From Sabellastarte sp. h YS-2021 (lineage: Eukaryota > Annelida > Polychaeta > Sabellida > Sabellidae): a DNA stretch of 64,000 nucleotides. The translations under genes were made by a program, and so were the position numbers. The notes under the pieces were generated by a model that saw nothing but the letters and a program-made list of their open reading frames with translations, was not told where the DNA came from and did no database searches. Every line of letters begins with the position of its first letter. Position 1 is the first letter of the stretch. Positions 3,976-49,100 of this stretch are shown here, piece by piece. The DNA lies in the NCBI GenBank assembly GCA_964017235.1, contig OZ024929.1, forward strand, positions 157,713,609-157,777,608, read 5' to 3'.

Positions 3976-4212
3976 TAACAAGACCACTGCTGCAGTGTTT
4001 ATCTCCTGCTGGATATTAAGGAGAATTGGAGATAGTCAAAGGGTTCAAAGTTTAATGAGCGAGATAACAGGCCTTTTCAATTTGATGACCAGAATGAACC
4101 TTGACGCAGGGCTCAAAGATCAAATCTAACACTTGCAAAACGCTCAGTGGACCTGATTTCCTGTAGAATTTCTAGGTTGTTCTTACATCTGAAAGACCAG
4201 AACCAACTAAAA
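3976..4212 (+). repeat. isolated left-end module of an S4-like element
   Basis: The segment opens with AAGACCACTGCTGCAGTGTT, in which CACTGC and GCAGTG form a small hairpin. The same module (CAAGACCACTGCCGCGGTGT) forms the left edge of the S4 array at 22206. It is followed by AACACTTGCAAAA and TTTCCTGTAGAATTTCTAGG motifs also seen at about 10407. It abuts the S1 left end at 4213. Confidence 0.5.
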
Positions 4213-4394
4213 CTAGAGGATCGCTTGCAAAAAAAAGATAATGTTTTTGCACAGCAAAAACAAAGCATCCCGAAAAGGATATAAAGGTGAGTGCTGAAGT
4301 ATTAAGAAAATGCTCTGCTTCTAGCCTTATACTGTTGTAGCAACCAAGGTCAGAGTAGTCTGGTCTATCTAGCACAGTTTTCAAGATATAAGCA

Positions 4395-5808
4395 TTTTTG
4401 TGTTTTGCAATTTTTGCAAAAAATTCGAAAATTCAAAATGGCCGCCATTTTTAGCGAGACAAAATTTTTTTTGAAAATTGGGATGGCTACTCTGCAGAGA
4501 TACACTGTGGGTCAAAAATTTCGTCGAAATCCCTCTATCTAGCATGGTTTTCAAGATATAAGCATTTTTGTGTTTTGCAATTTTTGAGAAAAATTCAAAA
4601 ATTCAAAACGGCCGCCATTTTTGGTGAGATAAATTTTTTTTTTGAAAATTGGGATGGCTACTCTACAGATACCCCGTGGGTCAAAAATTTTGTCGAAATC
4701 CCTCTATCTAGCACAGCTTTCAAGATATAAGCACTTTTGTGTTTTGCAATTTTTGAGAAAAATTCGAAAATTCAAAATGGCTGCCATTTTTAGCGAGACA
4801 AAATTTTTTTTAAAAATTGGGATGGCTACTCTGCAGAGATACCCTGTGGGTCAAAAATTTCGTCAAAATCCCTCGCATGGTTTTCAAGATATAAGTATTT
4901 TTGTGTTTTGCAATTTTTGCGAAAAATTCAAAAATTCAAAACGGCCGCCAATTTTGGTTAGACAAAATTTTTTTTTGAAAATTGGGATGGCTACTCTGCA
5001 GAGATACCCTGTGTCAAAAATTTCATTGAAATCCCTCTATATAGCACGGTTTTCAAGATATAAGCACTTTTGTGTTTTGCAATTTTTGCAAAAAAATCCG
5101 AAAATTCAAAATGGCTGCCATTTTTAGCGAGACAAAAATTTTTTGAAAAATTGGGATGGCTACTCTGCAGAGATACCCTGTGTCAAAAATTTCATTGAAA
5201 TCCCTCTATCTAGCACGGTTTTCAAGATATAAGCACTTTTGTGTTTTGCAATTTTGGCAAAAAAAATCCGAAAATTCAAAATGGCTGCCATTTTTAGCGA
5301 GACAAACATTTTTTGAAAAATTGGGATGGCTACTCTGCAGAGATACCCTGTGGGTCAAAAATTTCGTCAAAATCCCTCTATCTAGCATGGTTTTCAAGAT
5401 ATAAGCATTTTTGTGTTTTGCAATTTTTGCGAAAAATTCAAAAATTCAAAACGGCCGCCAATTTTGGTGAGACAAATTTTTTTTTTGAAAATTGGGATGG
5501 CTACTCTGCAGAGAAACCCTGTGTCAAAAATTTCATTGAAATCCCTCTATCTCGCACGGTTTTCAAGATATAAGCACTTTTGTGTTTTGCAATTTTTGCC
5601 AAAAAATCTGAAATTCAAAATGGCTGCGATTTTTGGCTAGACAAAATTTTTTTGAAAATTAGGATAGCTACTCTGCAGAGATACCCTTATGGGTAAAAAA
5701 TTTCGCCGAAATTGTTCTATCTAGCACGGTTTTCGAGATATAAGAATTGTTGTTTTTCAATTTTTGCGAAAAATTTGAAAATTCAAAATGGCTGCCATTT
5801 TTGGCAAT
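4395..5808 (+). repeat. S1 tandem array, first block (~169-bp units)
   Basis: Units are marked by GGGATGGCTACTCTGCAGAG, with the GAT at 4482, 4653, 4821, 4986, 5155, 5325, 5496 and 5663 (spacing 165-171). Each unit carries CTATCTAGCACGGTTTTC, TTTTGTGTTTTGCAATTT and a palindromic AAAATGGCCGCCATTTT or a variant. Because the unit length is near a multiple of three, long open frames arise by chance; I do not call them genes. Confidence 0.9.
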
Positions 5809-7396
5809 CTAATCTAATCTAATGTGGACTTTTATAGCGCTTAATCTCCATCACTGATGGACTCTAAGGCACATCTAAACATAAAGCAAGGCAGTTAGCG
5901 TTAATCAAGGGACATAGCCAGGTCGTACCAAGGAGACACAGATGTGATGGGGGAGGCTATGGTGGGTAGGCTTTTGCAAACAGGTATGTTTTAAGCTTCT
6001 TTTTGAAGGAGGCAACTGATGTTGCACCGCGAACATCTTGAGGGAGGTCATTCCAGATCTTAGGAGCATCAAAGGCAAAACTATGGCCGAAATGTTTGGC
6101 TGACTTGAAGACTGATGAATGGAAAGGAGGAACTGTAAGGTATCGACGATCTGGGTGACTATGTCTAGTACTATAGGGACAGCTACTAAAAGACAAGAAC
6201 GGTTCGAAATAAGGAGAACCACTATGCAAAAATTTATACACAAGTGTTGCAGTTTTAAAAATGCAACGGTACTTAACAGGCAACCAGTGGAGTTTCTGTA
6301 GAATGGGTGTAACATGTGCATACTTTCCATGATTTGTAACAATACTAGCCAGGGTATTCTGAATACTTTGCAATTTGTACTGATTGAAACCGGACAAACC
6401 TCTGAACAGAGAGTTACAATAGTCCAGACGACTACTAACCAAGGCATTTGCAGCAAGGACTGCCACTTCAGGAGTGAGATACTTTCTAATTATACGGAGG
6501 TCACGCATCTGAAGGAAGCACGCTTTGCAAGTCCTCTTGATATGCTCAGAGAATGAAAAATCTGCATCAAACCACACACCTAGATTTCTAACAGAATCAA
6601 CCGGATGAAGAAGGCTACCAAGAATGCTAACAGGAAAGTGAGAGGAAATCTTCTGACGTTGAGCCTTGGAACCAAAGACAATAAACTCAGTTTTTTCAGG
6701 GTTGAGCTTCAATTTACTCAGAGACATCCACTCTTGGACATCATGAAGGCAGGCATTAAGCTTGGCGAGAGCCGAAGAAGCATTCTTGTGGGAGAGATGG
6801 ATGTATAACTGAGTATCATCCGCATAAAAATGGAATTTAATATGTGGGTGGAGGTGAATAATTTTACTAAGTGGTGTTGTATAGAGTGAAAACAGTAACG
6901 GACCCAGAACAGAACCTTGCGGAACTCCACAGATGAGATTGCTTAATTCAGATAGTGTGGAGCCTATCTTAATGGCCTGGCAACGATTTCTTAAGTAGGA
7001 AGCAAACCACCTTAGAACTGTTCCACCAAGACCAAACCAGGATTTAAGGTAACCAAGGAGAATATTATGGTCTATAGTGTCAAATGCGGCTGATAAGTCA
7101 AGAAGTACTAGAGCTGTGGGTTCACCGCATGCCAGAGAGAGATGAACCTCGTTTTTTATAGACAATAAAGCAGTTTCCGTGGAATGTCCTGGCTTATATG
7201 CTGACTGATGAGGATTGTCCAGTTTGTTGTTATTAATGTGTGACGTTAGCTGCCTAGCAACGACTCGCTCAACCAACATTGACAGGAAACAAAGACCAGA
7301 CACTGGGCGATAATTCTTAAGGTCGTCTCTGGGAAGGGAAGCCTTTTTTATGAGGGGGGTGACAACCGCCTTTTTGAAAGAATTTGAGGGAGGTCA
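5809..7396 (-). mobile_element. 5'-truncated CR1/L2-type LINE inserted in S1 array
   Basis: The insert interrupts an S1 unit between TTTTTGGCAA (5808) and AAGATAAAAATTTTTTG (about 7396). On the minus strand it has the reverse transcriptase C-terminal half of the LINE, a short 3' UTR with AAGCGCTATAAAAGTCC, and a 3' end of four ATTAG-type repeats. The 5' part, including ORF1 and endonuclease, is missing, as is usual for incomplete reverse transcription. No clear target duplication is visible. Confidence 0.85.
5957..7393 (-). CDS. non-LTR reverse transcriptase fragment (CR1/L2 clade)
   Basis: The frame is open from the truncation point (about 7393; first recognisable residues NSFKKAVVTPLIKK and KNYRPVSGLCFLS) to the stop near 5957, about 478 residues. 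Reverse transcriptase motifs appear in order: HQSAYKPGHSTETALL, LVLLDLSAAFDTIDH (catalytic Asp), GVPQGSVLGPLLFSLY, and FHFYADDTQLY with the YADD active site. These are followed by NPEKTEF and the C-terminal region ending KLKTYLFAKAYPP. No stop or frameshift is seen, so the insertion may be fairly young, but without its 5' half it cannot be autonomous. The closest relation is to the CR1/L2 group, judged from the motif spelling. Confidence 0.85.
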   Translation of the reverse strand, partial: PPSNSFKKAVVTPLIKKASLPRDDLKNYRPVSGLCFLSMLVERVVARQLTSHINNNKLDNPHQSAYKPGHSTETALLSIKNEVHLSLACGEPTALVLLDLSAAFDTIDHNILLGYLKSWFGLGGTVLRWFASYLRNRCQAIKIGSTLSELSNLICGVPQGSVLGPLLFSLYTTPLSKIIHLHPHIKFHFYADDTQLYIHLSHKNASSALAKLNACLHDVQEWMSLSKLKLNPEKTEFIVFGSKAQRQKISSHFPVSILGSLLHPVDSVRNLGVWFDADFSFSEHIKRTCKACFLQMRDLRIIRKYLTPEVAVLAANALVSSRLDYCNSLFRGLSGFNQYKLQSIQNTLASIVTNHGKYAHVTPILQKLHWLPVKYRCIFKTATLVYKFLHSGSPYFEPFLSFSSCPYSTRHSHPDRRYLTVPPFHSSVFKSAKHFGHSFAFDAPKIWNDLPQDVRGATSVASFKKKLKTYLFAKAYPP

Positions 7397-9395
7397 AGAT
7401 AAAAATTTTTTGAAAACTTGGATAGCTACTCTGCTGAGATACCCTGAGGTTCAAAAATTTCATCGAAATCGCTCAATCTAGCACGGTTTTCGAGATATAA
7501 GCATTTTTGTGTTTTGCAATTTCTGCGAAAAATTGGAAAATTCAAAATGGCCGCCATTCTTGGCAAGAGAATTTTTTTTTGAAAACTGGGATATCTACTC
7601 TGCTGAGACACCCTGAGGGTCAAAAATTTTGTCGAAATCCCTCTATCTAGCACGGTTTTCAAGATATAAGCACTTTTGTGTTTTGCAATTTTGGCAAAAA
7701 ATTCGAAAATTCAAAATGGCTGCCATTTTTAGCAAGACAAACATTTTTTGAAAAATTGGGATGGCTACTCTGCAGAGATACCCTGTGGGTCAAAAATTTC
7801 GTCAAAATCCCTCTATCTAGCATGGTTTTCAAGATATAAGCATTTCTGTGTTTTGCAATTTTTGAGAAAAATTCAAAAATTCAAAACGGCCGCCAATTTT
7901 GGTTAGACAAATTTTTTTTTTGAAAATTGGGATGGCTACTCTGCAGAGATACCCTGTGTCAAAAATTTCATTGAAATCCCTCTATCTAGCACGGTTTTCA
8001 AGATAAGCACTTTTGTGTTTTGCAATTTTTGCCAGAAAATCTGAAAATTCAAAATGGCTGCGATTTTTGGCTAGACAAAATTTTTTTGAAAATTAGGATA
8101 GCTACTCTGCAGAGATACCCTTATGGATCAAATATTTCGCCGAAATTGTTCTATCTAGCACGGTTTTCAAGATATAAGAATTGTTGTGTTTTTCAATTTT
8201 TGCGAAAAATTTGAAAATTCAAAATGGCTGCCATTTTTGGCAAGATAAATTTTTTTTGAAAACTGGGATAGCTACTCTGCTGAGATACCCTGAGGGTAAA
8301 AAATTTCATCGAAATCGCTCAATCTAGCACGGTTTTCAAGATATAAGCATTTTTGTGTTTTGCAATTTCTGCGAAAAATTGGAAAATTCAAAATGGCCGC
8401 CATTTTTGGCAAGATAAATTTTTTTTTAAAACTGGGATATCTACTCTGCTGAGATACCCTGAGGGTCAAAAATTTTGTCGAAATCCCTCTATCTAGCATG
8501 GTTTTCAAGATATAAGCACTTTTGTGTTTTGCAATTTTTGCAAAAAATTCGAAAATTCAAAATGGCTGCCATTTTTAGCGAGACAAAATTTTTTTGAAAA
8601 TTGGGATGGCTACTCTGCAGAGATACCCTGTGGGTCAAAAATTTCGTCAAAATCCCTCTATCTAGCATGGTTTTCAAGATATAAGCATTTTTGTGTTTTG
8701 CAATTTTTGAGAAAAATTCAAAAATTCAAAATGGCCGCCAATTTTGGTGAGATCAATTTTTTTTTTTGAAAATTGGGATGGCTACTCTGCAGAGATACCC
8801 TGTGTCAAAAATTTCATTGAAATCCCTCTATCTAGCACGGTTTTCAAGATATAAGCACTTTTGTGTTTTGCAAATTTTGCCAAAAAATACGAAAATTCAA
8901 AATGGCCACGATTTTTGGCCAGACAAATTTTTTTTGAAAATTAGGATAGCTACTCTGCAGAGATACCCTTATGGTTCAAAAATTTCCCGAAATTGTTCTA
9001 TCTAGCACGGTTTTCGAGATATAAGAATTGTTGTGTTTTTCAATATTTGCGAAAAATTTGAAAATTCAAAATGGCCGCCATATTTGGCAAGACAAAATTT
9101 TTTTGAAAACTGGGATAGCTACTCTGCTGAGATACCCTGAGGGTCAAAAATTTCATCGAAATCGCTCGATCTAGCTCGGTTTTCGAGATATAAGCATTTT
9201 TGTGTTTTGCAATTTCTGCGAAAAATTGGAAAATTCAAAATGGCCGAAATTTCTGGCGAGACAAAATTTTTTTGAAACTTGGCATGGTTACTCTGCAGAG
9301 ATACCCTATGGCTCAAAATTTTCCTATGGCTCAAAAATTTCGTCGAAATCGCTCTATCTAGCACGGTTTTCAAGATATTAGCATTTTTGTGTTTT
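7397..9395 (+). repeat. S1 tandem array, second block, with 846-bp higher-order period
   Basis: Unit markers (GATAGCTACTCTGC and variants) fall at 7421, 7590, 7760, 7931, 8097, 8267, 8436, 8605, 8777, 8945 and 9114. Five distinct unit types recur in the same order, giving periods of 846 and 847 bp. Diagnostic variants are CTGCTGAGATACCCTGAGG at 7431, 8277 and 9124, and CCGAAATTGTTCTATC in the fifth unit. Confidence 0.9.
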
Positions 9396-9791
9396 CCTTA
9401 TTTGGAAAATTCATAATGATTATTAATCATTAATTACTCGGCCATTTCTTAACCAATCACTGCCAAAATCTAATGATTTCCAGATTTTAATAGAATGAAT
9501 GTATTTGCCAAGTTTCAGGTGAATTGATAAAATCCCTTTCAAGTTATCATCCGGACAAGCTTACCCATCGAAAAAAGACATTTTTGGTCATGTGACCTCT
9601 CTGATTGGTCAAAATGTCACTGCAGCATATTCAAAAAAATTCCCCAGGGCTACTGCATACACCTGCCAAATTTGAAAAGAATCCGCCCAGCGGTCACAGA
9701 GTTATGAGGAAAAGGAAAAGCGAAGCTCACGGAGCCGGCGGAGCCAGATATCCTCCCATATACAAACAAGCGTCCCTTATGGGACGCTTAA
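9396..9791 (+). repeat. S1 right-end module (copy a)
   Basis: The module begins with TTTGGAAAATTCATAATGAT and includes AAGTTATCATCCGGACAAGC, TTTTGGTCATGTGACCTCTC and CATATTCAAAAAAATTCCCC. It ends with the perfect stem AAGCGTCCC/GGGACGCTT followed by AAT. It is repeated at 27007-27240 (second half) and 47780-48173. Confidence 0.8.
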
Positions 9792-9859
9792 TTGCATCAC
9801 TTTGATGCAGTGCATCACCACATGGGGCATGGTATAATCTTACAGAGAATTCAAGCATT

Positions 9860-16886: not shown

Positions 16887-18368
16887 CAAGTGTCAACCTT
16901 CTACACCTTACGGAATCCAAAATGTAGCCCGGACAAGATTTTAAAACTCATGGTCACAACGACAAGGTCAAATCAAGATCACACCATGATGTTGTACACC
17001 TACAACCCTAAAGCAATGTCCCTACCAAGTATCAACTTCCTACACTTTACGACTTCAGAGATATTGTCCGGGCAAATATTACAGGTCAAGGTCACTATGG
17101 CAAGATCGAAGGTCAAATCAAGGTCACACCATGACTTTGAACACCTACAACTCCCAAACAATATCCCTACCACGTATCAACTTCCTTCACCTTACGGTTT
17201 CCAAGATATAGTCTGGACAAGATTTTATAGGCCAAGGTTACTACAAGGTCAAAGGTCAAATCAAGGTTACACCATGACGTGGCACACCTACACCCCCTAA
17301 CCAATGTCCCTACCATGTATCAACTTCCTACACCTTATGGATTCTGAGATATAGCCGGGACAAAATTTTCAAACTCAAGGTCACTAAGGGAAGGTAAAAG
17401 GTCAAATCAAAGTCACACCATGGCATTGCACATCTACAGCCCCTAACCAATGTCCCTACTAAGTATCAACTTCCTACACATTACAGTATCTGAGATACAG
17501 CAGGGACAAACTTTTTTGCGCCCATCTGGACACCATGGGTGAAAACAATACCCCGACAGCCCTTAAGAGCTATGGAGGTAATTATACCATTAGGAGTTTA
17601 TTTATTTATTTGAGTTTTAATGTTGCTTTCAACACAGGTCATACCATTAAGAAGAAGAGAATATAACAATTGTGCAACACACTAGTGATATCAATGACTT
17701 TTAAGTGTCATAAGTAACCTCACTGCTTTAGTGCTAAAATTACCTTTTATAGTTATGCCAAGTAGCAGCAATTCTCTTATGTGTCAAGACTTACACACAA
17801 TGTAGATACATTTGTACCTCAGCAATGAGTAAGTTATTTATATAATGGTATTTTACACCAATCTGTGATATTATTTGTTTTTTAATATTTTTATTTATTT
17901 TTGGTATATGCATCTAGATGTATAAAAAATAGAGAAATAGTTTACAATGGTTGGATTTAAACAACATTTAATAACAAAGTCAGTGTAAAAAGGTTATATT
18001 TTTACTGACAGGTTAATATAAAAAAGTAGCTGTAATACTCAATAAAATTAAATTTATCACGATGTTTGAAATAAAAGATATTACATCTGTGATTTTAATC
18101 AAATAATTAACAGCTGTGATAAACAAAGTAAGCTCTACTTTTAAACATTTATAAAGCTGTGATAAATAAAGTTTCCAAACGGTAATTTATATTTGACCAA
18201 TATCCACAATTTAAAATATCCAATTAACTTGTGACTAGTGTATATATTATTTGACTTTGCGAACATTGATACTGAATGCAAACATCTTTCAATATTGGAA
18301 AACATAGTGTGGATTATGTTGTCTACAAAACATTCCAATTCCTGGATACTGAAAAAGTTGTGTTCTAG
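16887..18368 (+). repeat. 1482-bp tandem duplication, second copy
   Basis: Every landmark is offset by 1482 from the first copy, for example CAAGTGTCAACC at 15405 and 16887, and the TTCTAGCA end at 16888 and 18370. A 2-bp CA is shared at the junctions, consistent with microhomology-mediated duplication. A copy error in the assembly is the alternative. Confidence 0.9.
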
Positions 18369-18479
18369 CATATTTCAAATGGAACAGGCCAACTAACAGG
18401 AAATGAAATTCATCAAAACAAAACATGGCTGATCTACAATCTATCCACTATTTGTGAAATGTATGTATTTTTTATAATT

Positions 18480-21055
18480 GTTGACCATTTAAACTAGACC
18501 TACGCATCGCAGAACCGATGCAAATCTGTATCCACCGGAAAGACAACTCACCAAAGCCAGTGAACCATCGGTTGACCTTGAAGGAGGGGCCAAAGGTCAA
18601 ATCTGACATCAGAAGATTCTCAGCCCACAATATCCTGCATGTTGGTTTCACTTTGCAAACCTCTAGGATCAATAATAAACGAGTTATAAACCCTTTTAAG
18701 TTTGGCTGTCCTCGTTTGACCTTGAAGGAGGGTCTCAAGGTCAAATCTGACCACATCAGAAGATTCCCGGCCCATGATTTCCTATAAGTTGCTTTACCAT
18801 CCCAAACCTCTAGGACCAATAATAACACACCAGAAGATTGCCAGTCCATGATTTCCTATAGGTTGGTGTTCCATCCCAAACCTCTGCGACCAAAAATAAG
18901 CGACTTATAAGCAGAGAAGTTTGGCTATCCTCGTATGACCTTGCAGGAGGGGTCCAAGGTCAAATCTAACCACACCAAAAGATTCCCAGCCCATGACTTC
19001 CTATAGGTTGGTTTACCATACCAAACCTCTAGGACCAATAATAACCGAGTTATAAGCACTTTTCAGTTTGGCTATCCTCGTTCGACCTTGAAGAGGCGGC
19101 CCAAGGTCAAATCTGACCACACCAAAAGATTCCCAGCCCATGACTTCCTATAAGTTGCTTTACCATACCAAACCTCTAGGACCAATAATAACTGAGTTAT
19201 AAGCACTTTTCAGTTCGGCTATCCTCGTTCGACCTTGAAGGGGCGGCCCAAGGTCAAATCCGAGCACACCACAAGATTCCCAGCCCATGATTTCCTATAG
19301 GTTGGTTTACCATACCAAACCTCTAGGCCCAATAATAAGCGAGTTATAAGCACTTTTAAGTTTGGCTATCCTCGTTTGACCTTGAAGGAGGGGCCCAAGG
19401 TCAAATCTGACCACACCAGAAGATTCCCAGTTTATGATTTCCTATAGGTTGGTTTACCATCCCAAATGTCTTGAACCAATAATAAGCGACTTATAAGCAC
19501 TTTTAACTTTGGCTATCCTCATTTGACCTTGAAGGAGGGGTCCAAGGTCAAATCTGACCACATCACAAGATTCCCAGCCCATGATTTCCTACATGTTGGT
19601 TTACCATCCCAAACCTCTAGGATCAATAATAAGCGAGTTACAAGCACTTTTAAGTTTGGCTATCCTCGTTTGACCTTGAAGGATGGGCCCAAGGTCAAAT
19701 TCGACCACACCAGAAGATTCCCAGTTTATGATTTCCTATAGGTTGGTTTACTATCCCAAACGTCTTGAACCAACAATAAGCAAGTTATAAGCACTTTTAA
19801 CTTTGGCTATCCTCGTTTGACCTTGAAGGAGGGGCCCAAGGTCAAATGCGACCACACCAGAAGAATCCAAGCCCATGATTTCCTATAGGTTGGTTTACCA
19901 TCCCAAACATCTTGAATCAATAATAAGCGAGTTATAAGCACTTTTAACTTTGGCTATCCTCATTTGACCTTGAAGGAGGGGCCCAAGGTCAAATCCAACC
20001 ACACCAGAAGATTGCCAGTCCATGATTTCCTATAGGTTGGTTTCCATCCCAAACCTCTAGGACCAATAATAAGCGAGTTATAAGCACTTTTCAGTTTGGC
20101 TATCCTCGTATAACCTTGAAGAAGGGGTCCAAGGTCAAATCTGACCACATCAAAAGATTCCCAGCCCATGATTTCCTATATGTTGGTTTACAATCCCAAA
20201 CCTCTAGGACCAATAATAAGCGAGTTATAAGCACTTTTAAGTTTGGCTATCCTCGTTTGACCTAGAAGAAGGGGCCGAAGGTCAAATCCGACCACACCAC
20301 AAGATTCCCAGCCCATGATTTCCTGTAGGTTGGTTTACCATCCTAAACCTCTAGGACCAATAATAAGCGAGTTATAAGCACTTTTATGTTTGGCTATCCC
20401 ATTTGACCTTGAAGGAGGGATTCAAGGTCAAATCTGACCACACCAGAAGATTCCCAGCCCATGTTTTCCTGTAGGTTGGTTTACCATCCCAAACCTCTAG
20501 GACTAATAATAAGTGAGTTATAATCACTTTTAAGTTTGGCTATCCTCGTTTGACCTTGAAGGAGGGGTCCAAGGTCAAATCTGACCACATCAGAAGATTC
20601 GCAGCACATGATTTCCTATAGGTTGGTTTCACATTGCAAACCTCTAGGACCAATAATAAGGGAGATATAGGCACTTTTAAAGTCCGCTATGTGGGTAACT
20701 TTGGCACTCCATGGATGACCTTGAATTAAGAGCTTCAAGGTCAAATGTCTGCAAGGTTGTAGAGGACATGTATATCTGTTATACATATCACCTATGAAGG
20801 CATTCAACCTTCTGCCTATGAGAAACAGCCAGTAGAAAAATTTAGATAATTTTCAAAGAAATTCCCACGGCGGCCATCTTGTTTTTCAGAATGAGGATAA
20901 TTTCCTTCCCAGAGAAGCTTACCCCCCAATGAAGATATCCTGAAAATTTGGTGAACCTAGCTGATGTAGTTTTCCTCTTAGAGCGTTAACACCGAAAATC
21001 TCTCTATGCGCGGTGGCGTAGCGAACGGATGCCTCCGGTGGATACAATAAGCTAC
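18480..21055 (+). mobile_element. S3 satellite-core element, copy ii
   Basis: The left end has GCATCG-CAGAAC-CGATGC, a 6-bp hairpin, then GTATCCACCGGA. The core is ~15 units of 147 bp, each with TTTGACCTTGAAGGAGGGG, CCCAAGGTCAAATC, TGATTTCCTATAGGTTGG and CAATAATAAGCGAGTTATAA. The right module (about 20690-21055) carries GGCGGCCATCTTGTTTTTCA, AAATCTCTCTATGCG and ends TCCGGTGGATAC, inverted relative to the left GTATCCACCGGA. No coding potential is seen. Confidence 0.75.
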
Positions 21056-21396: not shown

Positions 21397-22205
21397 AACA
21401 AGAGGAGAGTGCCCGTGAACGGGCACTGTGTCAGCTGACTGAGTGTTTTTGATTTGTGAAGGTGATTAGAGGACAGAATAATTATCAGGAAAAGGGCTGT
21501 ACAGAAATACAGTAAATGGTAACTGAACAGCAAGTTCGAAAGAAATTCCGAAGCTGACAGAAGAAAAGGATAAAAAAGTTGTGCCCTGTAAATGGTATTA
21601 TGAAGGAAAATAACAAGGTAATTGTTTAAGTGTAAAAAATAGGTTAAAACATATTTAAAGAAATACTACAAATGCAATATCCACGTTCGACCTTGAAGAA
21701 GGGGTCCAAGGTCAAATCTAACCACACAAATACATTCCCAGCCCATGATTTCCTATGGTTTACCATTCCAAACCTCTAGGACCAATTATAAACTAGAGGA
21801 TCGCTCGCAAAAAAAAAAGATAATGTTTTTGCATAGCAAAAACAAAGCGTCCCGAAAAGGATATAAAGGTGAGTGCTAAAGTATTAAGAAAATGCTTCGT
21901 TTCTAGCCTTATACTGTTGTGGCAACCAAAGTCAGCGCAGTCTGCTCTATCTAGCACGGTTTTCAAGATATAAGCATTTTTGTGTTTTGCAAAAAATAAA
22001 AAAATTAAAAATGTCCGGTATATTTGGCGAGACAAAAATATTTTGAAAATTGGCATGGCTACTCTGCAGAGATACCCAGCAGGTCAAAAACTTTGTTGAG
22101 TTCGCTCCATATAGCACGGTTTTCGAGATATAAGCATTTTTGTGTTTTGCAAAAACTTTGAAAATTCAAAATGGCCACCATTTTTGGGGAGACAAAAATT
22201 TTTGT

Positions 22206-25200
22206 CAAGACCACTGCCGCGGTGTGTATCTCCTGCCGAGCATTAAAGCAGAAGAAATAGCTTTTCCGAGATATTCACAATTTTTCATTTTCCTGTGTGA
22301 AAGCTCTTCCAAAAGTAGGTGAATGAGTTATTTGAGAAAAATTGGCTATCTGCAATACTATTAAGAGATAATTCATATTTACTCATTTTGAGTAGGTGAA
22401 TAATTATCTATGGGTCTGAAACTTCACCAAGTGAAAGCTCTCCCAAAAGTAGGTGAATGAGTTATTTGAGAAAAATTGGCTATCTGCAATACTTTTAGAG
22501 ATAATTCGCATTTACTCATTTTGAGTAGGTGAGTAATTAGCTATGGGTCTGAAACTTCACCATGTGAAAGCTCTCCCACAAGTAGATGAATGAGTATTTG
22601 ATAAAAATTGGGTATCCGCAATACTTTTACAGATAATTAGCATTTACTCATTTTGAGTAGGTGAATAAATAGCTATAGGTCTGAAACTTCACAGAGTGAA
22701 AGCTCTCCCAAAAGTAGGTGAATGAGTTATTTGAGAAAAATTGGCTATCTGCAATACTTTTACAGATAATTCACATTTACTCATTTTGAGTAGGTGAATA
22801 ATTAGCTATGGGTCTGAAACTTCACCAAGTGAAAGCTCTCCCAAAAGTAGGTGAATGAGTTATTGGAGAAAAATTGGCTATCTGCAATACTTTTAGAGAT
22901 AATTTGCATTTACTCATTTTGAGTAGGTGAGTAATTAGCTATGGGTCAGAAACTTCACCAAGTGAAAGCTCTCCCAAAAGTAGGTGAATGAGTTATTTGA
23001 GAAAAATTGGCTATCTGCAATACTTTTAGAGATAATTCGCATTTACTCATTTTGAGTAGGTGAGTAATTAGCTATGGGTCTGAAACTTCACTAAGTGAAA
23101 GCTCTCCCAAAAGTAGGTGAATGATTAATTTGAGAAAAATTGGCTATCTGCAATACTTTTAGAGATAATTCGCATTTACTCATTTTGAGTAGGTGAGTAA
23201 TTAGCTATGGGTCTGAAACTTCACCAAGTGAAAGCTCACCCAAAAGTAGGTGAATGAGTTATTTGAGAAAAATTGGCTATCTGCAATACTTTTAGAGATA
23301 ATTCGCATTTACTCATTTTGAGTAGGTGAGTAATTAGCTACGGGTCTGAAACTTCACAGAGTGAAAGCTCTCCCAAAAGTAGGTGAATGAGTTATTTGAG
23401 AAAAATTGGCTATCTGCAATACTTTTAGAGATAATTCGCATTTACTCATTTTGAGTAGGTGAGTAATTAGCTATGGGTCTGAAACTTCACAGAGTGAAAG
23501 CTCTCCCAAAAGTAGGTGAATGAGTTATTTGAGAAAAATTGGCTATCTGCAATACTTTTAGAGATAATTCGCATTTACTCATTTTGAGTAGGTGAGTAAT
23601 TAGCTACGGGTCTGAAACTTCACCAAGTGAAAGCTCTGCCAAAAGTAGGTGAATGAGTTATTTGAGAAAAATTGGCTATCTGCAATACTATTAAGAGATA
23701 ATTCATATTTACTCATTTTGAGTAGGTGAATAATTATCTATGGGTCTGAAACTTCACCAAGTGAAAGCTCTCCCAAAAGTAGGTGAATGAGTTATTTGAG
23801 AAAAATTGGCTATCTGCAATACTTTTAGAGATAATTCGCATTTACTCATTTTGAGTAGGTGAGTAATTAGCTATGGGTCTGAAACTTCACCATGTGAAAG
23901 CTCTCCCACAAGTAGATGAATGAGTATTTGATAAAAATTGGGTATCCGCAATACTTTTACAGATAATTAGCATTTACTCATTTTGAGTAGGTGAATAAAT
24001 AGCTATAGGTCTGAAACTTCACAGAGTGAAAGCTCTCCCAAAAGTAGGTGAATGAGTTATTTGAGAAAAATTGGCTATCTGCAATACTTTTACAGATAAT
24101 TCACATTTACTCATTTTGAGTAGGTGAATAATTAGCTATGGGTCTGAAACTTCACCAAGTGAAAGCTCTCCCAAAAGTAGGTGAATGAGTTATTGGAGAA
24201 AAATTGGCTATCTGCAATACTTTTAGAGATAATTTGCATTTACTCATTTTGAGTAGGTGAGTAATTAGCTATGGGTCAGAAACTTCACCAAGTGAAAGCT
24301 CTCCCAAAAGTAGGTGAATGAGTTATTTGAGAAAAATTGGCTATCTGCAATACTTTTAGAGATAATTCGCATTTACTCATTTTGAGTAGGTGAGTAATTA
24401 GCTATGGGTCTGAAACTTCACTAAGTGAAAGCTCTCCCAAAAGTAGGTGAATGATTAATTTGAGAAAAATTGGCTATCTGCAATACTTTTAGAGATAATT
24501 CGCATTTACTCATTTTGAGTAGGTGAGTAATTAGCTATGGGTCTGAAACTTCACCAAGTGAAAGCTCACCCAAAAGTAGGTGAATGAGTTATTTGAGAAA
24601 AATTGGCTATCTGCAATACTTTTAGAGATAATTCGCATTTACTCATTTTGAGTAGGTGAGTAATTAGCTACGGGTCTGAAACTTCACAGAGTGAAAGCTC
24701 TCCCAAAAGTAGGTGAATGAGTTATTTGAGAAAAATTGGCTATCTGCAATACTTTTAGAGATAATTCGCATTTACTCATTTTGAGTAGGTGAGTAATTAG
24801 CTATGGGTCTGAAACTTCACAGAGTGAAAGCTCTCCCAAAAGTAGGTGAATGAGTTATTTGAGAAAAATTGGCTATCTGCAATACTTTTAGAGATAATTC
24901 GCATTTACTCATTTTGAGTAGGTGAGTAATTAGCTACGGGTCTGAAACTTCACCAAGTGAAAGCTCTGCCAAAAGTAGGTGAATGAGTTATTTGAGAAAA
25001 ATTGGCTATCTGCAATACTTTTAGAGATAATTCGCATTTACTCATTTTGAGTAGGTGAGTAATTAGCTACGAGTCTGAAACTTCACAGAGTGAAAGCTCT
25101 CCCAAAAGTAGGTGAATGAGTTATTTGAGAAAAATTGGCTATCTGCAATACTTTTAGAGATAATTCGCATTTACTCATTTTGAGTAGGTGAGTAATTAGC

Positions 25201-25766
25201 TATGGGTCTGAAACTTCACCAAGTGAAAGCTCTCCCAAAAGTAGGTGAATGAGTTATTTGAGAAAAATTGGCTATCTGCAATACTTTTAGAGATAATTCG
25301 CATTTACTCATTTTGAGTAGGTGAGTAATTAGCTATGGGTCTGAAACTTCACAGAGTGAAAGCTCTCCCAAAAGTAGGTGAATGAGTTATTTGAGAAAAA
25401 TTGGCTATCTGCAATACTTTTAGAGATAAATCGCATTTACTCATTTTGAGTAGGTGAGTAATTAGCTATGGGTCTGAAACTTCACCAAGTGAAAGCTCTC
25501 CCAAAAGTAGGTGAATGATTAATTTGAGAAAAATTGGCTATCTGCAATACTTTTAGAGATAATTCGCATTTACTCATTTTGAGTAGGTGAGTAATTAGCT
25601 ATGGGTCTGAAACTTCACCAAGTGAAAGCTCTCCCAAAAGTAGGTGAATGAGTTATTTGAGAAAAATTGGCTATCTGCAATACTTTTAGAGATAATTCGC
25701 ATTTACTCATTTTGAGTAGGTGAGTAATTAGCTATGGGTCTGAAACTTCACCAAGTGAAAGCTCTT
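22206..25766 (+). mobile_element. S4 element or array, nested in S1
   Basis: It begins with the left module CAAGACCACTGCCGCGGTGT and then about 26 units of 133 bp. Each unit has GTGAAAGCTCTCCCAAAAG, TAGGTGAATGAGTTATTTGA, TTGGCTATCTGCAATACTTT and TTTACTCATTTTGAGTAGG. The array ends at GAAAGCTC(TTTGGG) without a recognised right module. The units resemble S5 units (CCCAAAAGTAGGTGAA, TGCAATA, TTTACTCA, GGTCTGAAA), so S4 is probably a homogenised branch of S5. Confidence 0.75.
22321..24980 (+). repeat. 1330-bp higher-order repeat, two copies (S4)
   Basis: Rare unit variants recur at an exact 1330-base offset: GCAATACTATTAAGAG (22351 and 23681), CACCATGTGAAAGC (22559 and 23889), GGTGAATGATTAATTTG (23116 and 24446), AGCTCACCCAAAAG (23235 and 24565) and AGCTCTGCCAAAAG (23631 and 24961). 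Ten 133-bp units were therefore duplicated as a block. Confidence 0.85.
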
Positions 25767-28700
25767 TGGGATAGCTGCTCTGCAGAGATACCCTGAAGAT
25801 AAAAAATTTCGTCGAAATCGCTCTATGTAGCACGGTTTTCGAAATATTAGCATTTTTGTGTTTTGCAATTTTTGCGCAAAAATTCGAAAATTCAAAATGG
25901 CCGCCATTTTTGGCAAGACAAATTTTTTTTGAAAATTGGCATGGCTACTCTGCAGAGATACCCTGTGGGTCAAAAATTTCGTCGAAATCGCTCTATCTAG
26001 CACGGTTTTCGAGATATAAGCATTTTTGTGTTTTGCAATTTTGCGAAAAATTCGAAAATTCAAAATGGCCGCCATTTTTTGCGAGAAATTTTTTGTCTGA
26101 AAATTGGCATGGCTACTCTGCAGATACCCTGCAGGTCAAAAATTTCGTCGAAATCGCTCTATCTAGCAGGGTTTTCAAGATATAAGCATTTTTATGTTTT
26201 GCAATTTTTGCGAAAAATTCGAAAATTCAAAATGGCCGCCATTTTTGGCGAGACAAAATTTTTTTGAAAATTGGCATGGCTACTCTGCAGATATACCCTG
26301 TGGTTCAAAAATTTTGTCGAAATCTCTCTATCTTGCAGGGTTTTCGAGATATAAGCATTTTTATGTTTTGCAATTTTTGCGAAAAATTCAAAAATTCAAA
26401 ATGGCCGCCATTTTTGGCGAGAAAAATTTTTTTTTTCAAAATTGGGATAACTACTCCGCAGAGATACCCTGCGGGTCAAAAATTTCGTCGAAATCGCTCT
26501 AACTAGCACGGTTTTCGAGATATAAGCATTTTTGTGTTTTGCAATTTTTGCGAAAAATTCAAAAATTCAAAATGGCCGCCATTTTTGGCGAGAAAATTTT
26601 TTTTTTCAAAAATGGGATAACTACTCCGGAGAGATACCCTGTGGGTCAAAAATTTCGTCGAAATCGCTCTAACTAGCACGGTTTTCGAGATATAAGCATT
26701 TTTGTGTTTTGCAATTTTTGCGAAAATTTCGAAAATTCAAAATGGCCGCCATTTTTGGCGAGACAAAAATTTTTTGAAAATTGGGAAAAGTACTCCTGCG
26801 GCTCAAAAATTTTGTCGAAATTGCTCTATCTAGCACGGTTTTCGAGATATAAGCATTTTTGTGTTTTGCAATTTTTGCGAAAATTTCGAAAATTCAAAAT
26901 GGTCGCCATTTTGGGCGAGACAAAATTTTTTTGAAAATTGGGATAACTACTCCGCAGAGATACCCTGCGGGTCAAAAATTTCGTCGAAATCGCTCTATCT
27001 AGCACGGTTTTCGAGATCGAAAAAAGATATTTTTGGTCATGTGACCTCTCTGATTGGTTGAAATGTCACTGCAGCATATTCAAAAAAATTCCCCAAGGCT
27101 ACTGCCTAAACCTGCCAAATTTGAAAAGAATCCGCCTAACGGTTACAGAGTTATAAGGAAAACAAAATGCGGAGCCGGCGGAGCTGGTGGAGCCGGAAGC
27201 TCTCCCATACACAAACAAGCGTCCCTTGCGGGACGCTTAATGAGTTATAAGCACTTTTAAGCTTGGCTGTCCTCATTTGACCTTGAAGGAGGGGTCCAAA
27301 GGTCAAATCTGACCATACCAAAAGATTCTGAGCCAATGATTTCCTATGGGATGGTTTACCATCCCAAATCTCTGTCACCAATAATAAGCGAGTTGTAGGC
27401 ACTTTCAATTTTCGCTATCCTCATTTGACCTTGAAGGAGGGTTCCAAGGTCAAATCGGACCATATCAACAGATTCACAGCCCATGATTTCCTGTCTGTTT
27501 ACCATCCCAAACCTCTGGGACCAATAATAAGCGAGTTATAAGCACTTTTAAGTTTGGCTATCCTTGTTTGACCTTGAAGGAGGGGTCATTGAAGGTCAAA
27601 TCTGACCACACCAAAAGATTCCCACTCCATGATTTCCTACAGGTTGGTTTATCATCCCAAACCTCTAGGATCAATAATAAGGGAGATATAAGCACTTTTC
27701 ATGACTGACAAAAAACACCTGTGGCGGCCATCTTGTTTCTCAAAATGACGCCAAAAATATTCCCAGACAACATTTTATGGTTATTAATATATACTGCAAA
27801 CTTAAGAAAGCTAGCTATAATATTTTTTTTCATCAGAGCAGTAATGGTGAAATCTCTCTCTACACACTGCGGCTATCCAGTGGATACAATGATTTACTCA
27901 ACAGTGAGAACCTGAAAGTAGCTATTGCTCAGCTGTGCCATGACATAGAGGTCTGCAATTTCACTATGTTATAGCTGACCAAAAATTCTGTGAATAACAT
28001 ATTTAACAAATTACTCTAAATGTAATAGTTTTCAAGTTACAACTGATTTACTGAACAGTGAGAACCTCAAAGGAACTATTACTCAGCTATGCACTGAGCT
28101 GCATGTCTGAAATTTTACTATGTTATAGCTAACCCAAAAGTAGGTGAACAACATATTTAAGCAAACTACTGTAAATGCAATAGTTTTCAAGCTACAACTG
28201 ATTTACTCAATAGTGAGAACTTGAAAATAGCTATTGCTCCGCTATGCCATGAGCTATAGGTCTGTAATTTCACTATGTTATAGCTGACCCAAAAGTAGGT
28301 GAACAATATATTTTAACAAAATACTCCAAATGCAATATTTTTCAAGTTATAGCTGATTTACTCAACAGTCAGTACCTGAGAATAGCTATTGCTCAGTTGT
28401 GCCATGAGCTATAGGTCTATAATTTCACTATGTTATGGCTGACCCAAAAGTAGCTGAATAACATATTTGCACAAATTTCTGTAAATGCAATAGTTTTCCA
28501 ATTATAACTGATTTACTCAACAGTGAGAACTTCAAAGTTGCTATTACTCAGCTATGAAATGAGCCACAGGTCTGAAACTTCACTATGTTATAGCTGACCC
28601 CAAAATAGGTGAATAACATATTGAAACAAAATACTCTAAATGCAATAGTTTTCAAGTTATAAGTGATTTACTCAACAGTGATAACCTAAAAGTAGCTATT

Positions 28701-29385
28701 ACTCAGCTATGCCATGAGCTACAGGTCTGAAATTTTACTATGTTATAGCTGGCCCAAAAGTAGCTGAATAACATATTCATACGAAATTCTCTAAATGCAA
28801 TAGTTTTTAAGTTACAAGTGATTTTACTCATGATGGAAGTTACTGAAAAGCCCAAAAGTAGCTATTACTCACTTAGCTATTGAGACAGACACCCAACTTA
28901 CTCACCATATTGTAGCTATGAAAAAAGTAGCTGAACAACATATTTTCACAAAATGCTGTAAATGCAACACTTTTGAAGTTATAAGTGATTTAGTGCATGA
29001 TTTCATGAATTTTAATGCATTAAAAATTATTAAAAAGATTTATTAAAAAAAAAGTAAGACAGATCCAGGTCTCATACTCACACAAGAGAATCTACCTCTG
29101 GCCTAGTACATATATGCAAGATATGATAGAAATCCCTGCAATAGTCACTGAGAAAATTGTGATAAAAAGTTGAAATTTTCACACTTTTGGTGGGGGTACC
29201 CCCCTTGTAATGTCTCTAGCAAACAGACGAACAGACAGATTTGCATGCCTTGAACAATTTTTCATCCTCGATAGATAAGGTATCTTTTAAAAAAAACAGC
29301 ATGTCTCTAGGCCTTGTAGTTTTGGAGAAGAAGTTGTTCACGCGGACGCGTACGCCCATGCCGCAGAGTGATGACATAAAAACAG

Positions 29386-30965
29386 GGGTCTTTTTATCTT
29401 GGTTCAGAGTATAAAATTTACCAGAAATCTTTCAAGGTCCACCGGATCCGCGGACTGTAATTCAAAAATATCACAGATCCATAGCAAAAGTTGCCAGTCC
29501 ATATTTCAAAGTTGGTTAATTTGATATTCAGTTTTTTTTTAAAAACTGTACAGCTGTTATTTTCTATTACAGATAAAAGAGATATCACAAATGAAGATAA
29601 TTTTATGCAAACGCATAGCACGAGTATTGTTAATTTTCAGGAGTGATATATATTTTTGTATATGTCTAATGCCCCTTTCAACCACAGGTGGTACATCCCG
29701 TGGTGAGATGTTTCACTTGGCGGCGGAACCGCCTCCCAGGTCACCCCATTTTGTCCGAGTTGTTCACACTGCAGGCGGACGGCCACTGATTGGACAAGGT
29801 TTTTTTAACCATCAATAACAGTAGGATGACTATCATTAAGAAGCAACCACCATTCAACTCACCTTCGGTAGCCGTCGGACGAACAGGTGGTTAAATGACC
29901 AATACCTCCACTCACCTTATGTTGGTTTGTTACACCAAAGGATGACCGCGTCACAACCTTATATACACTGGGGACCACACCTTTGGTTACGTTGTAAAAA
30001 ATTCACATGCGCAGAATCACCTGTGCATGCTCATGGTTCCAAAATCAGAGGCAGAAATTTTAAACTTTTCAAAACTTAAGTGAGACACATAAGGATTGGG
30101 ACGGTGGGCCACGGACTCGCAAGTTTACAAACAGACGCCAAGCGCTGATCCAAGGACAGGGACGCTTCACCAAATGCGAGTTACAGCAGGTCATACTGCC
30201 TGTACTGTAAAAGGGTGTAATGAGGGATGTTTTTCTTTTAATATCCACTTTTTTGCATATTTTATGACTTAAATAAATCCACATTTACAGAAAGAGTGTG
30301 AAAAATTCTTACATATATACACGGGTACCAGTACATATTTGTAGGTTATCTAATTTCTGAGATAAAGTGGAAAACTGGAAGTACTTACAGTGAAAGAAAA
30401 ACATTGGTGTGGTTACAGGTTTTGGAAACAACTCCCAAAAGAAATAAAACTGCAAATAATGTATCTGAAAAGTAAAATGTACCTAATATACCAAGTTTAA
30501 AATAGTTAAAATGCTAAAATGCAATTTACACTCTTAATATTTAAAATAAATTGTATGAAGGATATGGGAAATTCCAAGCAGTGTGGTTATACAGGGAATC
30601 GCCCTTCCTTTGTTTAAAGGAAAATCTTTGGTAAGGTGGAATAAAGGAGGGTTTGTGAAACAGGATTTAAGGGAAGCCTTGCCAAAGGTTAGAAATTCCC
30701 TTTTCTTTACTTTAAGGAAGGAAAAAACAAAGGAGGCTTCGTGAAACCGGCCCCAGACAAAAAAAAAAAAAATGACCGAGTGTCTACTATACACCTTAAT
30801 ATACATATTTGTGTACAAATATTGTGCACAATTTTAATATTTAAAGGTTTAAACAGAAATTTAAAACTGTGGTCGCAACTCAGTGTATATTTCAAATCAA
30901 AGATTTGACTAATAAAAAACTACTCAAACCAATAAAAGTAATGTTCAGAGTTTTAAGCAAGTTAC
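29386..30965. other. intronic or 3' region with transposon remnants
   Basis: CCCCTTTCAACCACAGGTGG at 29671 resembles the end of the TIR element at 31345-31916, and the GTAGCCGTCGGAC motif at 29870 recurs there inverted. A second MITE-like segment, about 30590-30757, ends GAGGCTTCGTGAAACCGGCC, as does the element at 39085-39450. No POLR1A exon was recognised here. Confidence 0.45.
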
Positions 30966-46100: not shown

Positions 46101-49100
46101 CAGCATGCAAATATTCCAGGTAGCTGTCTCTACGCACAAGGGTGAAGTTGGCAACACTGATGAAAACGCCTTCAGACAAGTCCGCCACTGTCCTGGCCAT
46201 GGCTTGGGAGATTGAAAGGTTAAAAGTCACCAAATACTCCAGTTCATCCACAGCTTGCTGCGTTCTTTCAGAGGACTTGCCCTTGATCTTATCCGAGTGC
46301 AAACTCTTGAGTTGTGTAGACATCGTGTCCTGTATTCTAGTCAAGCACCTTGACAACTGGCAGCTTGGTTGCACGTAACAGTCAGTTCTCTAGCTACTCT
46401 TTCCTAGCGCTCAAAATGTCCTGGCTAAGGGGCCGGGATGGTGGGGCAGCAGGTAAACTACATCTGGCCACCCTGCTGAACGCACTATTCAGCTTTGCCG
46501 GTTCCGGAGACCAGGAACACACAGTGGACAAATCAGAGTCTTTCTTGTCCGCATGTATGTCATACCATCTAGACGACCTGGGTGGCTTGACGAACTGGTC
46601 CCTGAGAAGCCCAGCAGTTTCTGTGTTTCTTGAACGGTAGCCTTCAGTGATGGTGAGGTTTAACTTTTCCATCTTTCTGCAAAGCCAGTCGTCTTACAGG
46701 TAGTTTTACAGATACCTTCCTGGTTGGCTGGACTCGGGAATCGGCAAACGGGTTATCATCTGAAGATGAAACACTGTCGAATTCAGGGATCTTGTGCCAG
46801 CCCAAGAATGACCTCACACCTCTGATCGTCTCTCTGTAACTGGCTTCCGAAGAAAGTTCTTGATCACCTGAATCATCTTTGTCTGGGGAGCCATACTGGA
46901 AGTTGTCATCAGCAGGGGAACCAGGCTCACTTTGCAGATCTTCCTCACTGTCAGACTGTACAACAGTACCGGTGCCGGATAGCAGAACCTCAGGACCCGC
47001 ACCAGGAAACTCAACAGGCTGGGTGGCCGTCCCTGAACCGGGAGAATCAACAGGCTGGGAGGCATTCTGCTGGATCACATCTCCCCTTCTCGCCACTTCA
47101 GTACTGGGACACTTAACAGGGAGGGTAACACAGCCATAACATGGCCACACATGCCTCTCTTCTGTCCAGGGGAAGACATAATGATCAGTAATTCAGTAGA
47201 AATATGTAGATATAATTAAAAGTTCATAAAATGGTTGAATTCGTTGTAAAACACTCTAAAACGTTTCTCTGTAGAAAACACGTCTGCACACTCCACGCAC
47301 CAAACAAAAAAGATGCTATGGCGTCGTGATGTCTAGACAGGAAGAAAGTACGATGCCACCTAGCGAATGCACACTCCGTGACCGGTCCTGCTGGTAGTAT
47401 ATATAGGATGTCTTTTTCTGGCATTTGGCAGGATCGGTTGTGCCGACCAGTAAAGCAATTGTCCATTTGATAGGATGTATTAATGCAATAAAATCGAAAA
47501 TTCAAAATGCCTGCCATTTTCGGCGAGAAAATTTTTTTTTTTTGAAAATTGGACTGGCTATTCTGCCGAGATACCCTGCGGAATGAAAATTTTGTTATAA
47601 GCATTTTTGTGTTTTGCAATTTTTGTGAAAAATTTGAAAATTCAAATGGCTGCCATTTTTGGTGAGAAAAAAATTTTGGGAAAAATGTGCTAGTTAATCT
47701 GGAGAGATACCCTGTTTGTCAAAACTTTCATCGAAATCGCTCTATCGTGCATGGTTTCCGAGAAACAGGCATTTTTGTGCTTTCTTTATTTGGAAAATTC
47801 GCAATGATTAATTAATCATTAATTACTCGACCATTTCTTAACCAATCAATGCCAAAATCTAATGATTTCCAGATTTTAATAGAATGAATGTATTTGCCAA
47901 GTTTCAGGTGAATAGATAAAATCCCTTTCAAGTTATCATCCGGACAAGCTTACCAATCGAAAAAAAAAGACAATTTTAGTCATGTGACCTCTCTGATTGG
48001 TTGAAATGTCACTGCAGCATATTCAAAAAAATTCCCCAGGGCTACTGCATACACCTGCCAAATTTGAAAAGAACCTGCCCAACGGTCACAGAGTTATCAG
48101 GAAAACAAAACACAGAGATGGGGGAGCCTGATTTCCTCCCATATACAAACAAGCATCCCTTGCAGGAAGCTTAATAATACCAAAATAAAGTTTTGCATAT
48201 ATTTAAAAAGATACTAAGCTTTGGGGTTATCTTTGCTATTTTCTATTTTTTTACGAAAGTCATACCTGAGCTTTTAGAAACTAACAAGCAATCAGTGCCC
48301 GTGAACGGGCTCTGTGTCAGATGACTGTGTTTTGAGTTTCAGAGTAGAAGTGACAGAAGAAAAGGACACAAACGTTGTGCCCTGCAAATGACATTCAGAA
48401 GGAAAGTAACAAGGTAATTGTTTAGGTGTTAAAAGAAGGTTAAAAACATATTTAAAGAAAATACTGCAAATGCAATAGTTTTCGAGTTACAACTGATTTA
48501 CTCAAAATGAGAATCTCAAAGTAGCTTTTGCTCAGCTATGCAATCAGTTAAAGGGTTGCAAGTTTAATATGGTATAGCTCACGCAAAAGTAGGCGAATAA
48601 CATATTTAAAGAAATACTGTAATTGAAATAGTTTTCAAGGTAAAACTGATTTACTCAACAGTGAGAACCTGAAAGTAGCTATTACTCAGCTATGCAAGGA
48701 GCTACAGGACTGCAATTTTACTATTTTATAGCTGACCCAAAAGTAGATATTATTAAATAACTATTTAAACAAAATACTGTAAATGCAATAGTTGTCAAGT
48801 TACAACTGATTTACTCAACAGTGAGAACCTGAGAATAGCTATTACATAACTATGGCAGGAGCTACACATCTGCAATTTTACAATGTTATAGCTGATTCAA
48901 AAGTAGATGAATATCATATTTAAACAAAATTCTCTAAATGCAATACTTTTCAAGTTAAAACTGATTAACTAAACAGAGTAAACCTCAAAGTAGTTATTGC
49001 TCAGCTATGCCAGGAGCTACAGGTCTACAATTTCATTATGTTATCGCTGACTCATAAGTATATGAACAACATATTTAAACAAAATACTCTAAATGCACTA

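Follow-up and report, generated by a model that had tools for sequence, protein, structure and literature searches.

A 64,000-nucleotide stretch of the genome of the sabellid polychaete Sabellastarte sp. h YS-2021 (GenBank assembly GCA_964017235.1, contig OZ024929.1, positions 157,713,609 to 157,777,608; hereafter, the window) contains arrays of five satellite units, S1 to S5, and between positions 21397 and 29389 four of these arrays lie one inside another. The locus raises the question of whether this nest was built in place by four successive insertions, as the original prediction proposed, or arrived as a single element. Judging from the sequence features described below, we consider it probable (roughly 0.9) that the nest, 8 kb long, represents a single copy of a HINE-type (non-autonomous Helentron) rolling-circle transposon of composite structure, layered by insertion and re-amplification.

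The nest and its copies across the genome

The satellite units were annotated with profile hidden Markov models (HMMs), and matches were counted at 20 bits or more. From left to right, the modules of 21397–29389 are S5, S3, S1, S4, S1, S3 and S5, and all S1–S5 matches in the window at this threshold lie on one strand. In junction alignments, the S5 unit was interrupted at phase ~137 and taken up again at ~148–153 of 155, and the S1 unit was interrupted at phase ~102–106 and taken up again at ~109 of 169; relative to its consensus, the S3 unit was interrupted at phase 110 and taken up again at 113 of 147. By our own estimate from these offsets, assuming random phase, three such near-phase resumptions have a chance probability of ~5e-4. 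Ordinary insertions in the window leave junctions like those of the nest: the host phase is 89 and then 87 across a reverse transcriptase (RT)-bearing insert in S1A, an S1 element, and 73 and then 77 across an insert resembling a short interspersed nuclear element (SINE) in S5B, an element related to S5. These data confirm that the nesting is real. The original prediction was correct about the module order and coordinates, about the positions of the strings CCAATTATAAA and GAGTTATAAG, and about the resumption of each host unit past its insert, which is nearly in phase at three levels; of its four elements the order stands, but S3 lacks a left end and S4 a recognised right end. Among the units themselves, S4 and S5 are homologous (0/300 shuffles), and a 28-bp box, AGATATAAGCATTTTT / AGTTATAAGCACTTTT, is common to the S1 unit (phase 16) and the S3 unit (phase 114; 0/300 shuffles).

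The genome (1.786 Gb, 647 contigs) was searched with positions 21397–22397, a 1,001-bp query that crosses the S5|S3, S3|S1 and S1|S4 junctions, and 40 of 1,775 first-look candidates were scored. The best 40 of these 1,775 places, the window included, all matched over query positions 1–1001 or 2–1001 at 99–100% identity, and the matching places were on many contigs and both strands. When 10 kb was fetched at 20 of the 39 other scored places, every copy had the same left end within one base, and the left S5, S3 and S1 parts and the S4 flank were contiguous with the same coordinates in 20/20. All ten modules, some of them partial, occurred in order in 15 of the 20 (L009, L010, L013, L015–L021, L023 and L025–L028). 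The right flank of the window had no match in the 20 fetched copies, and its left flank matched only within S3 repeats. Because the same junctions and left end recur at many places from which the window flanks are absent, the nest did not form at the window locus; it is one pre-assembled composite mobile element that moved as a unit and was recently amplified. The earlier claim that the satellites are mobile is thereby supported, in the form that they are cores of mobile elements inserted into one another.

The left S1-to-S4 junction had the same phase within 2 bases in 20/20, and the right S4-to-S1 junction, visible in 19 copies, had the window phase in 12, a shared variant in five (S4 phase 106 to S1 phase 67; L013, L019, L022, L023 and L027) and other phases in two (L009 and L025). 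The variant common to five copies indicates, at the sequence level, that subfamilies of the composite exist. The S4 core ranges from 3 units (L021) to at least 60 (L012) among the 20 copies, the right S1 part from 4 to 11 units (19 copies) and the S5 array from 7 to 14 units (16 copies), and the right S3 part, visible in 18 copies, has three units in 16 of them. Over the left 900 bp, 21 sequences differed from their consensus by a mean of 0.52%, with 47 singleton against 12 shared variable columns; this star-like variation is as in a recent burst. A scan for the satellite patterns in collections of viral contigs and genome contigs found none.

Parts, ends and affinities of the composite

The window copy (21397..29389) lies on the minus strand, an orientation inferred from the layout of its hairpins and subterminal inverted repeats (subTIRs), with 5′ and 3′ labels following the layouts in PMC4067079 and PMC7492417; its 5′ end is therefore at the right and its 3′ end, shared with 20/20 other copies, at the left. 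Previous assignments of S1 to the plus strand and of S3 and S5 as 5′-truncated were reversed by the subTIR and palindrome layout. The left S5 part (21397..21679, minus), which forms the composite 3′ end, has a palindrome at 21408–21427 and the subTIR TGTCAGCTGACT. It is followed by the left S3 piece (21680..21791, minus), which HMM and junction alignment show to be 3′-truncated and to begin within an S3 unit, and by the left S1 part (21792..22203, minus), comprising the S1 3′ end and ~1.5 S1 units, whose boundary was set from the empty site described below. The S4 left flank (93 bp, 22204..22296, no strand assigned) has a non-significant hairpin (z score 0.7) and resembles, at 57/81 positions, the left end (3979–4053) of an old element, X. 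In the HMM annotation the S4 array (22297..25765, no strand assigned) has 26 units of 133 bp plus 11 bp, and it holds an exact 10-unit duplication (22309–23689 = 23639–25019; 1,381 bp, zero mismatches). The right S1 part (25766..27239, minus), with ~7.5 units and a tail, ends in the terminal hairpin AAGCGTCCC-TTGC-GGGACGCTT, the S1 5′ end; the right S3 part (27240..27885, minus) has three units, a tail and the S3 5′ end TCCAGTGGATACAA, with a hairpin that is weak in the window copy (z −1.4). The S5 array (27886..28990, minus) has 7 units, many fetched copies being ~480 bp (three units) longer here, and the right S5 part (28991..29389, minus) forms the composite 5′ end.

DNA folding gave strong hairpins at the right end of S1 in the window (z −5.0), at the left end of S5 (z −4.3) and at the right ends of the window elements S5B (z −4.5), S2b (z −4.6) and S3B (z −7.5). 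A palindrome is present near the 3′ end of the composite, that is, S5 left (z −4.3), and of S5B (left, z −2.8; 0/200 shuffles each); it is weaker at the left ends of S1 (2/200) and of the solo S3 element (10/200). The solo S3 (18490..21050, minus) has a perfect 13-bp subterminal inverted repeat, TGTATCCACCGGA, and among the eight window elements tested the inverted repeats of this element, S1B and S2b exceeded chance (0/200 shuffles each). The 12-bp candidate subTIR TGTCAGCTGACT is seen at both ends of hairpin-bearing composite copies. The composite left end reads AACAAGAGGAGAG, with minor changes among copies. Right ends were readable in 15 sequences (14 copies and the window; L013 was cut by its fetched stretch and five more were not printed), eight of which (L009, L016, L018, L019, L023, L025, L026 and L027) have ATGTCAGCTGACTGACAAGTCAGCTGACATAAAAA or a near form with the hairpin and an A-run.

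The target sites are T-rich. On the element strand, the first three positions after the composite 3′ end are T in 20/20, 18/20 and 15/20 copies, with 20 of 21 sequences fitting the search pattern. The hairpin pattern is retained in 10 of the 21, and in all of these (10/10) TTTT stands before the 5′ end. As in HINEs, there is no target-site duplication and the site is TT or T-rich (shown by the S1 empty site in two sister copies and by the composite ends), a palindrome lies near the 3′ end, and, considering same-strand matches only, the core repeats keep a constant orientation to the ends: the left S3, S1 and S4 parts are oriented as in the window in 20/20 copies, the right S1 part in 19 and the right S3 part in 18. 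Canonical Helitrons have 5′ TC and 3′ CTRR ends and insert between A and T (PMC4067079), whereas the composite has a T-rich 5′ end (TTTTTATGTCAG) and a 3′ end CTCTTG, and S1 used a TT site; the S1 3′ end does carry CTAG.

Several observations weigh against this reading of a recently amplified HINE-type unit. The scored and fetched copies are those most like the window, so that identity and age estimates lean recent, and divergence is higher over the right 1.1 kb (16 sequences, mean 1.4% from the consensus, up to 10.8% pairwise). Some copies are incomplete: L011 lacks the S3 tail and the S5 array, L014 and L024 diverge past the S1 tail, L022 has no right end and L012 is cut within the S4 array. 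The left flanks of L023 and L024 are similar by eye, so the independence of every pair of copies is not certain. At the right end of the composite, the hairpin is shortened in L015 and L017, L011 ends after the first arm, and in four of 15 (L010, L020, L021 and the window) the hairpin is absent, as if lost between ACATAA repeats. The solo S3 has no significant terminal hairpin at its right end (z −0.8, 46/200 shuffles) and only a weak one at its left, and in the shuffle test the inverted repeats of S5A (29/200), S5B (109/200), S1A (33/200), S1C (154/200) and S2c (51/200) were not above chance.

The closest relatives, compared with the composite by description rather than by sequence, are Cg_HINE of the Pacific oyster and the DINE-1/HINE elements of Drosophila and mites. 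Cg_HINE is a non-autonomous Helentron-type element with 140–180-bp satellite-like cores; it has a 5′ subTIR with an inverted repeat and a 3′ subTIR with a palindrome, makes no target-site duplication, uses TT or T-rich targets and sometimes inserts into other repeats, and two elements have two arrays in a row (PMC7492417). The composite shares with it the type of core, the apparent layout of the ends, the targets, insertion into repeats and the presence of more than one array. The passages of PMC7492417 consulted describe at most two arrays side by side, attributed to recombination or junction capture, whereas the composite has four nested arrays, one layer of which has an empty site in a sister family. 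DINE-1/HINE elements have a 3′ palindrome, a TT preference and central repeats, and mite HINEs have 12–15-bp palindromic subTIRs (PMC4067079); the palindrome, the target and the repeats recall the composite, as may the subTIRs, whereas stacked cores amplified as a unit, as in the composite, are not described in the relevant passages of that paper.

S3 and S4 in the nest resemble those Helitron-associated satellites that have a box at just one side (PMC8268682). As far as its passages go, that study counts such one-sided elements by their boxes, whereas here two S3 and one S4 are placed in named hosts with junction phases. The Cg170 satellite, in which a monomer is interrupted by cut-and-replace with a short host piece missing (PMC5139131), is like S3 in S5, where a short host piece was also lost; unlike what is reported there for Cg170, the 10–16 bp lost from the host here are few compared with the length of the insert, and the inserted sequences are complete or partial transposons. 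A literature search over titles and the beginnings of abstracts named no HINE with four nested satellite cores, a result that holds for that search only.

Empty sites and the order of the layers

If the composite was layered by insertion and re-amplification, an S5 element with a core of 155-bp units would have received S3 in that core, and the resulting S5(S3) would have multiplied; one S5(S3) copy would then have received S1 in its S3 core, with S1 either already carrying the S4 array or receiving it later, and the resulting S5(S3(S1(S4))) would have multiplied again by means of the outer ends of S5. By family likeness, movement would be rolling-circle transposition driven by a presumed autonomous Helentron, which would have the same ends and encode Rep/helicase and endonuclease.

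The S1 layer has an empty site. A 401-base query joining the S3 pieces without S1 matched the best 40 of 904 candidate places over 1–401 (one over 1–399), unbroken and at 99%. Two of these copies, L068 and L069, were read: the left S5 part, both S3 parts, the S3 tail and the S5 array run unbroken, with the same left end as the composite and other flanks. These are sister copies elsewhere in the same genome, not the same locus in another individual. Their empty site is CCAATTATAAATGAGTTATAAG, in a wider reading GGACCAATTATAAATGAGTTATAAGCAC, where the window has GGACCAATTATAA, S1 and ATGAGTTATAAGCAC. By comparison with these two copies, S1 was inserted between two Ts (element strand) with zero loss and zero duplication; an apparent 2-bp host loss, seen against the consensus, was dropped, since the empty site shows none. 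S1 lies in S3 beside the 28-bp box common to the two units. The search for empty sites thus restored the host unit exactly at this layer and, because the best 40 of 904 places have S3 with nothing at the S1 site, the sequence comparison shows that S3 arrived before S1.

The S3 layer is older. A 285-base query without S3, with 40 of 1,187 candidates scored, crossed the S3 site in 8 of the best 40 at 79–83%, and the other 32 matched one side only. These eight S5 relatives hold 11–22 bases more than the query, which is consistent with the 10–16 bases missing at S3. S5 without S3 was therefore seen only as diverged relatives, while S5(S3) and S5(S3(S1(S4))) are both young and numerous. The same genome thus contains each successive layer as a group of its own: old relatives for S5 alone, then S5(S3), then S5(S3(S1(S4))).

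For S4, a 909-base query without the array (40 of 1,604 candidates scored) found no S1 lacking S4 among the best 40, and 39 alignments ended at the S1|S4 joint. One place, L072, was considered as an S4-less intermediate and rejected, because its letters show an extra S1 unit and then S4. It is possible that S1 brought S4 with it. A composite that moves as a whole carries its layers along, so the nesting by itself leaves two courses for S4, entry into S1 ahead of the S1 insertion into S3 or after it. Of the order originally predicted, S5 < S3 < S1 < S4, the empty sites uphold S3 before S1, whereas the nesting does not date S4. That S1 already held S4 on entering S5(S3), so that S4 was not the last arrival in the composite lineage, has in our estimate an even chance: S4-less composites are missing from the best 40 while S1-less S5(S3) is common, but S4-less copies could rank lower among the 1,604 candidates, and no S1(S4) outside S3 turned up, although no search aimed at one was made.

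It is also possible, though unlikely, that the layers are a mosaic that arose through recombination or the capture of junctions between arrays, the origin suggested for two-array oyster HINEs, rather than nested insertions. Parts of the nest have features that such a process could leave: the S3 of the composite and that of S5B are both 3′-truncated and accompanied by missing host sequence, S4 breaks off abruptly at its border with S1 and keeps its left flank only, and cut-and-replace and recombination have been proposed in the passages of PMC5139131 and PMC7492417 cited above. For S1 a mosaic origin is refuted by its two ends and its loss-free empty site in sister copies, and at each of the three levels the host unit continues past its insert in phase or close to it.

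Under layered insertion, the S3 event would have been an aborted one. Both S3 copies retain their 5′ end but break off within their own array before the 3′ end, with joints that overlap by 1–3 bp by eye, which is consistent with copying that was aborted and then repaired by end joining; rolling-circle copying runs 5′ to 3′ with a 3′ hairpin as terminator (PMC8268682). Expansion of the S4 core may reflect slippage, recombination or copying by the rolling-circle route.

Segmental or tandem duplication of a block holding the nest is highly improbable. The near identity of the copies, the similar left flanks of L023 and L024 and an exact local duplication in the window (15405–16888, repeated) would suit it, but the copies start at the same base, in T-rich targets, without the window flanks, on many contigs and both strands, and L015 interrupts an S4 unit that resumes in phase (38, then 39). 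Least probable of all is the local nest first envisaged, four separate insertions at the window locus in the order S5, S3, S1, S4, which the in-phase resumption at three levels would allow but which, unless the assembly is wrong at all places, is refuted by the recurrence of the three left junctions at 39 other scored places (99%) and by the absence of the window flanks from all 20 that were fetched.

Target arrays, neighbouring elements and the spread of satellites

The original prediction also held that the satellites prefer, or persist only in, each other's arrays. In a scan of left flanks only, in which the pieces from L029, L042 and L046 included some element letters, S1–S5 units of at least 20 bits were found within 300 bp in 5/40 (L012, L014, L015, L021 and L032), and 35/40 had none. 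As background, S1–S5 units made up 3,964 of 40,000 bp (9.9%) in twenty random 2-kb stretches, with 125 bp of S5 and no S4. S1, S2 and S3 units were in 0/40 left flanks, though they make up most of the sampled arrays (3,839 of 3,964 bp). L015 lies within an S4 unit of another S1(S4) array (S1, S4 to phase 38, the composite, S4 from 39, S1), which is presumably part of a composite, and L014 is at the same place of the S4 unit; by eye, L030 and L031 adjoin S5-right sequence and L041 adjoins S1-left sequence. Solo elements also exist in the window, and its satellite arrays host an insert with RT, a pair of SINE-like inserts and a DIRS-like element (the SINE-like and DIRS-like labels being given by eye). 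With unit-free flanks, solo elements and other inserts in arrays, the predicted preference is not shown, and a preference for arrays as a whole is not established. For S4/S5-type units, 5/40 left flanks against 125/40,000 bp in a small background sample is suggestive of a preference.

The other elements of the window show related arrangements. S5B (48282..51748, minus) is uninterrupted at the S3 site of the composite, has an intact terminal hairpin and carries its own 3′-truncated S3 (50663–51390) at a different site. S1A (4212..9791, minus), with its RT-bearing insert at 5806–7396, apparently lies inside old element X (~3979–11622), which is HINE-like, contains units resembling those of S3, S1 and S5 and has a right end like that of S1; S1A follows an S3-like unit at phase ~107. 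The exact tandem duplication 15405–16888 = 16887–18370 comprises part of an S2 array and flank and is either recent or an assembly artefact. We take 36410–36746 and 49657–50003, very similar by eye and both within satellite arrays, to be two copies of a tRNA-like SINE. Inside S1C, at 41940–47480, lie pieces of a presumably DIRS-like retroelement, with RT and an integrase-like match that is weak and below the cut-off, and at 476–1954, at the left edge of the window, there is a gag-like frame. Matches to the large subunit of RNA polymerase I, on the minus strand at ~52.9 and ~31.1 kb, make it probable that the composite in the window is intronic, within a POLR1A-like gene, although no POLR1A exon was recognised to the left of the nest with a few motifs and by-eye reading of some stretches. 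The satellite elements of the window share the orientation of this gene, provided that the 5′ and 3′ labels are right.

We tentatively suggest that the cores may serve as landing pads in a ratchet, in which a HINE enters the core of another and leaves its ends unharmed, the stack is copied by way of the outer ends, and the core just added serves as the following pad; this may or may not prove to be so, and we lean slightly against it. Since the composite already lies inside S4 arrays of its own kind (L014 and L015), stacks would under the landing-pad model grow layer by layer and disperse together, and S4/S5-type units may be genuinely preferred as sites. In bivalves, the origin of multi-satellite transposons was left open in the account consulted, with recombination or junction capture proposed (PMC7492417). 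Because the layers are seen here as separate groups in one genome, stepwise nesting and then transposition of the whole stack can be read from empty sites. Stepwise nesting with transposition of the stack is a simple route by which unrelated satellites may be linked and spread together.

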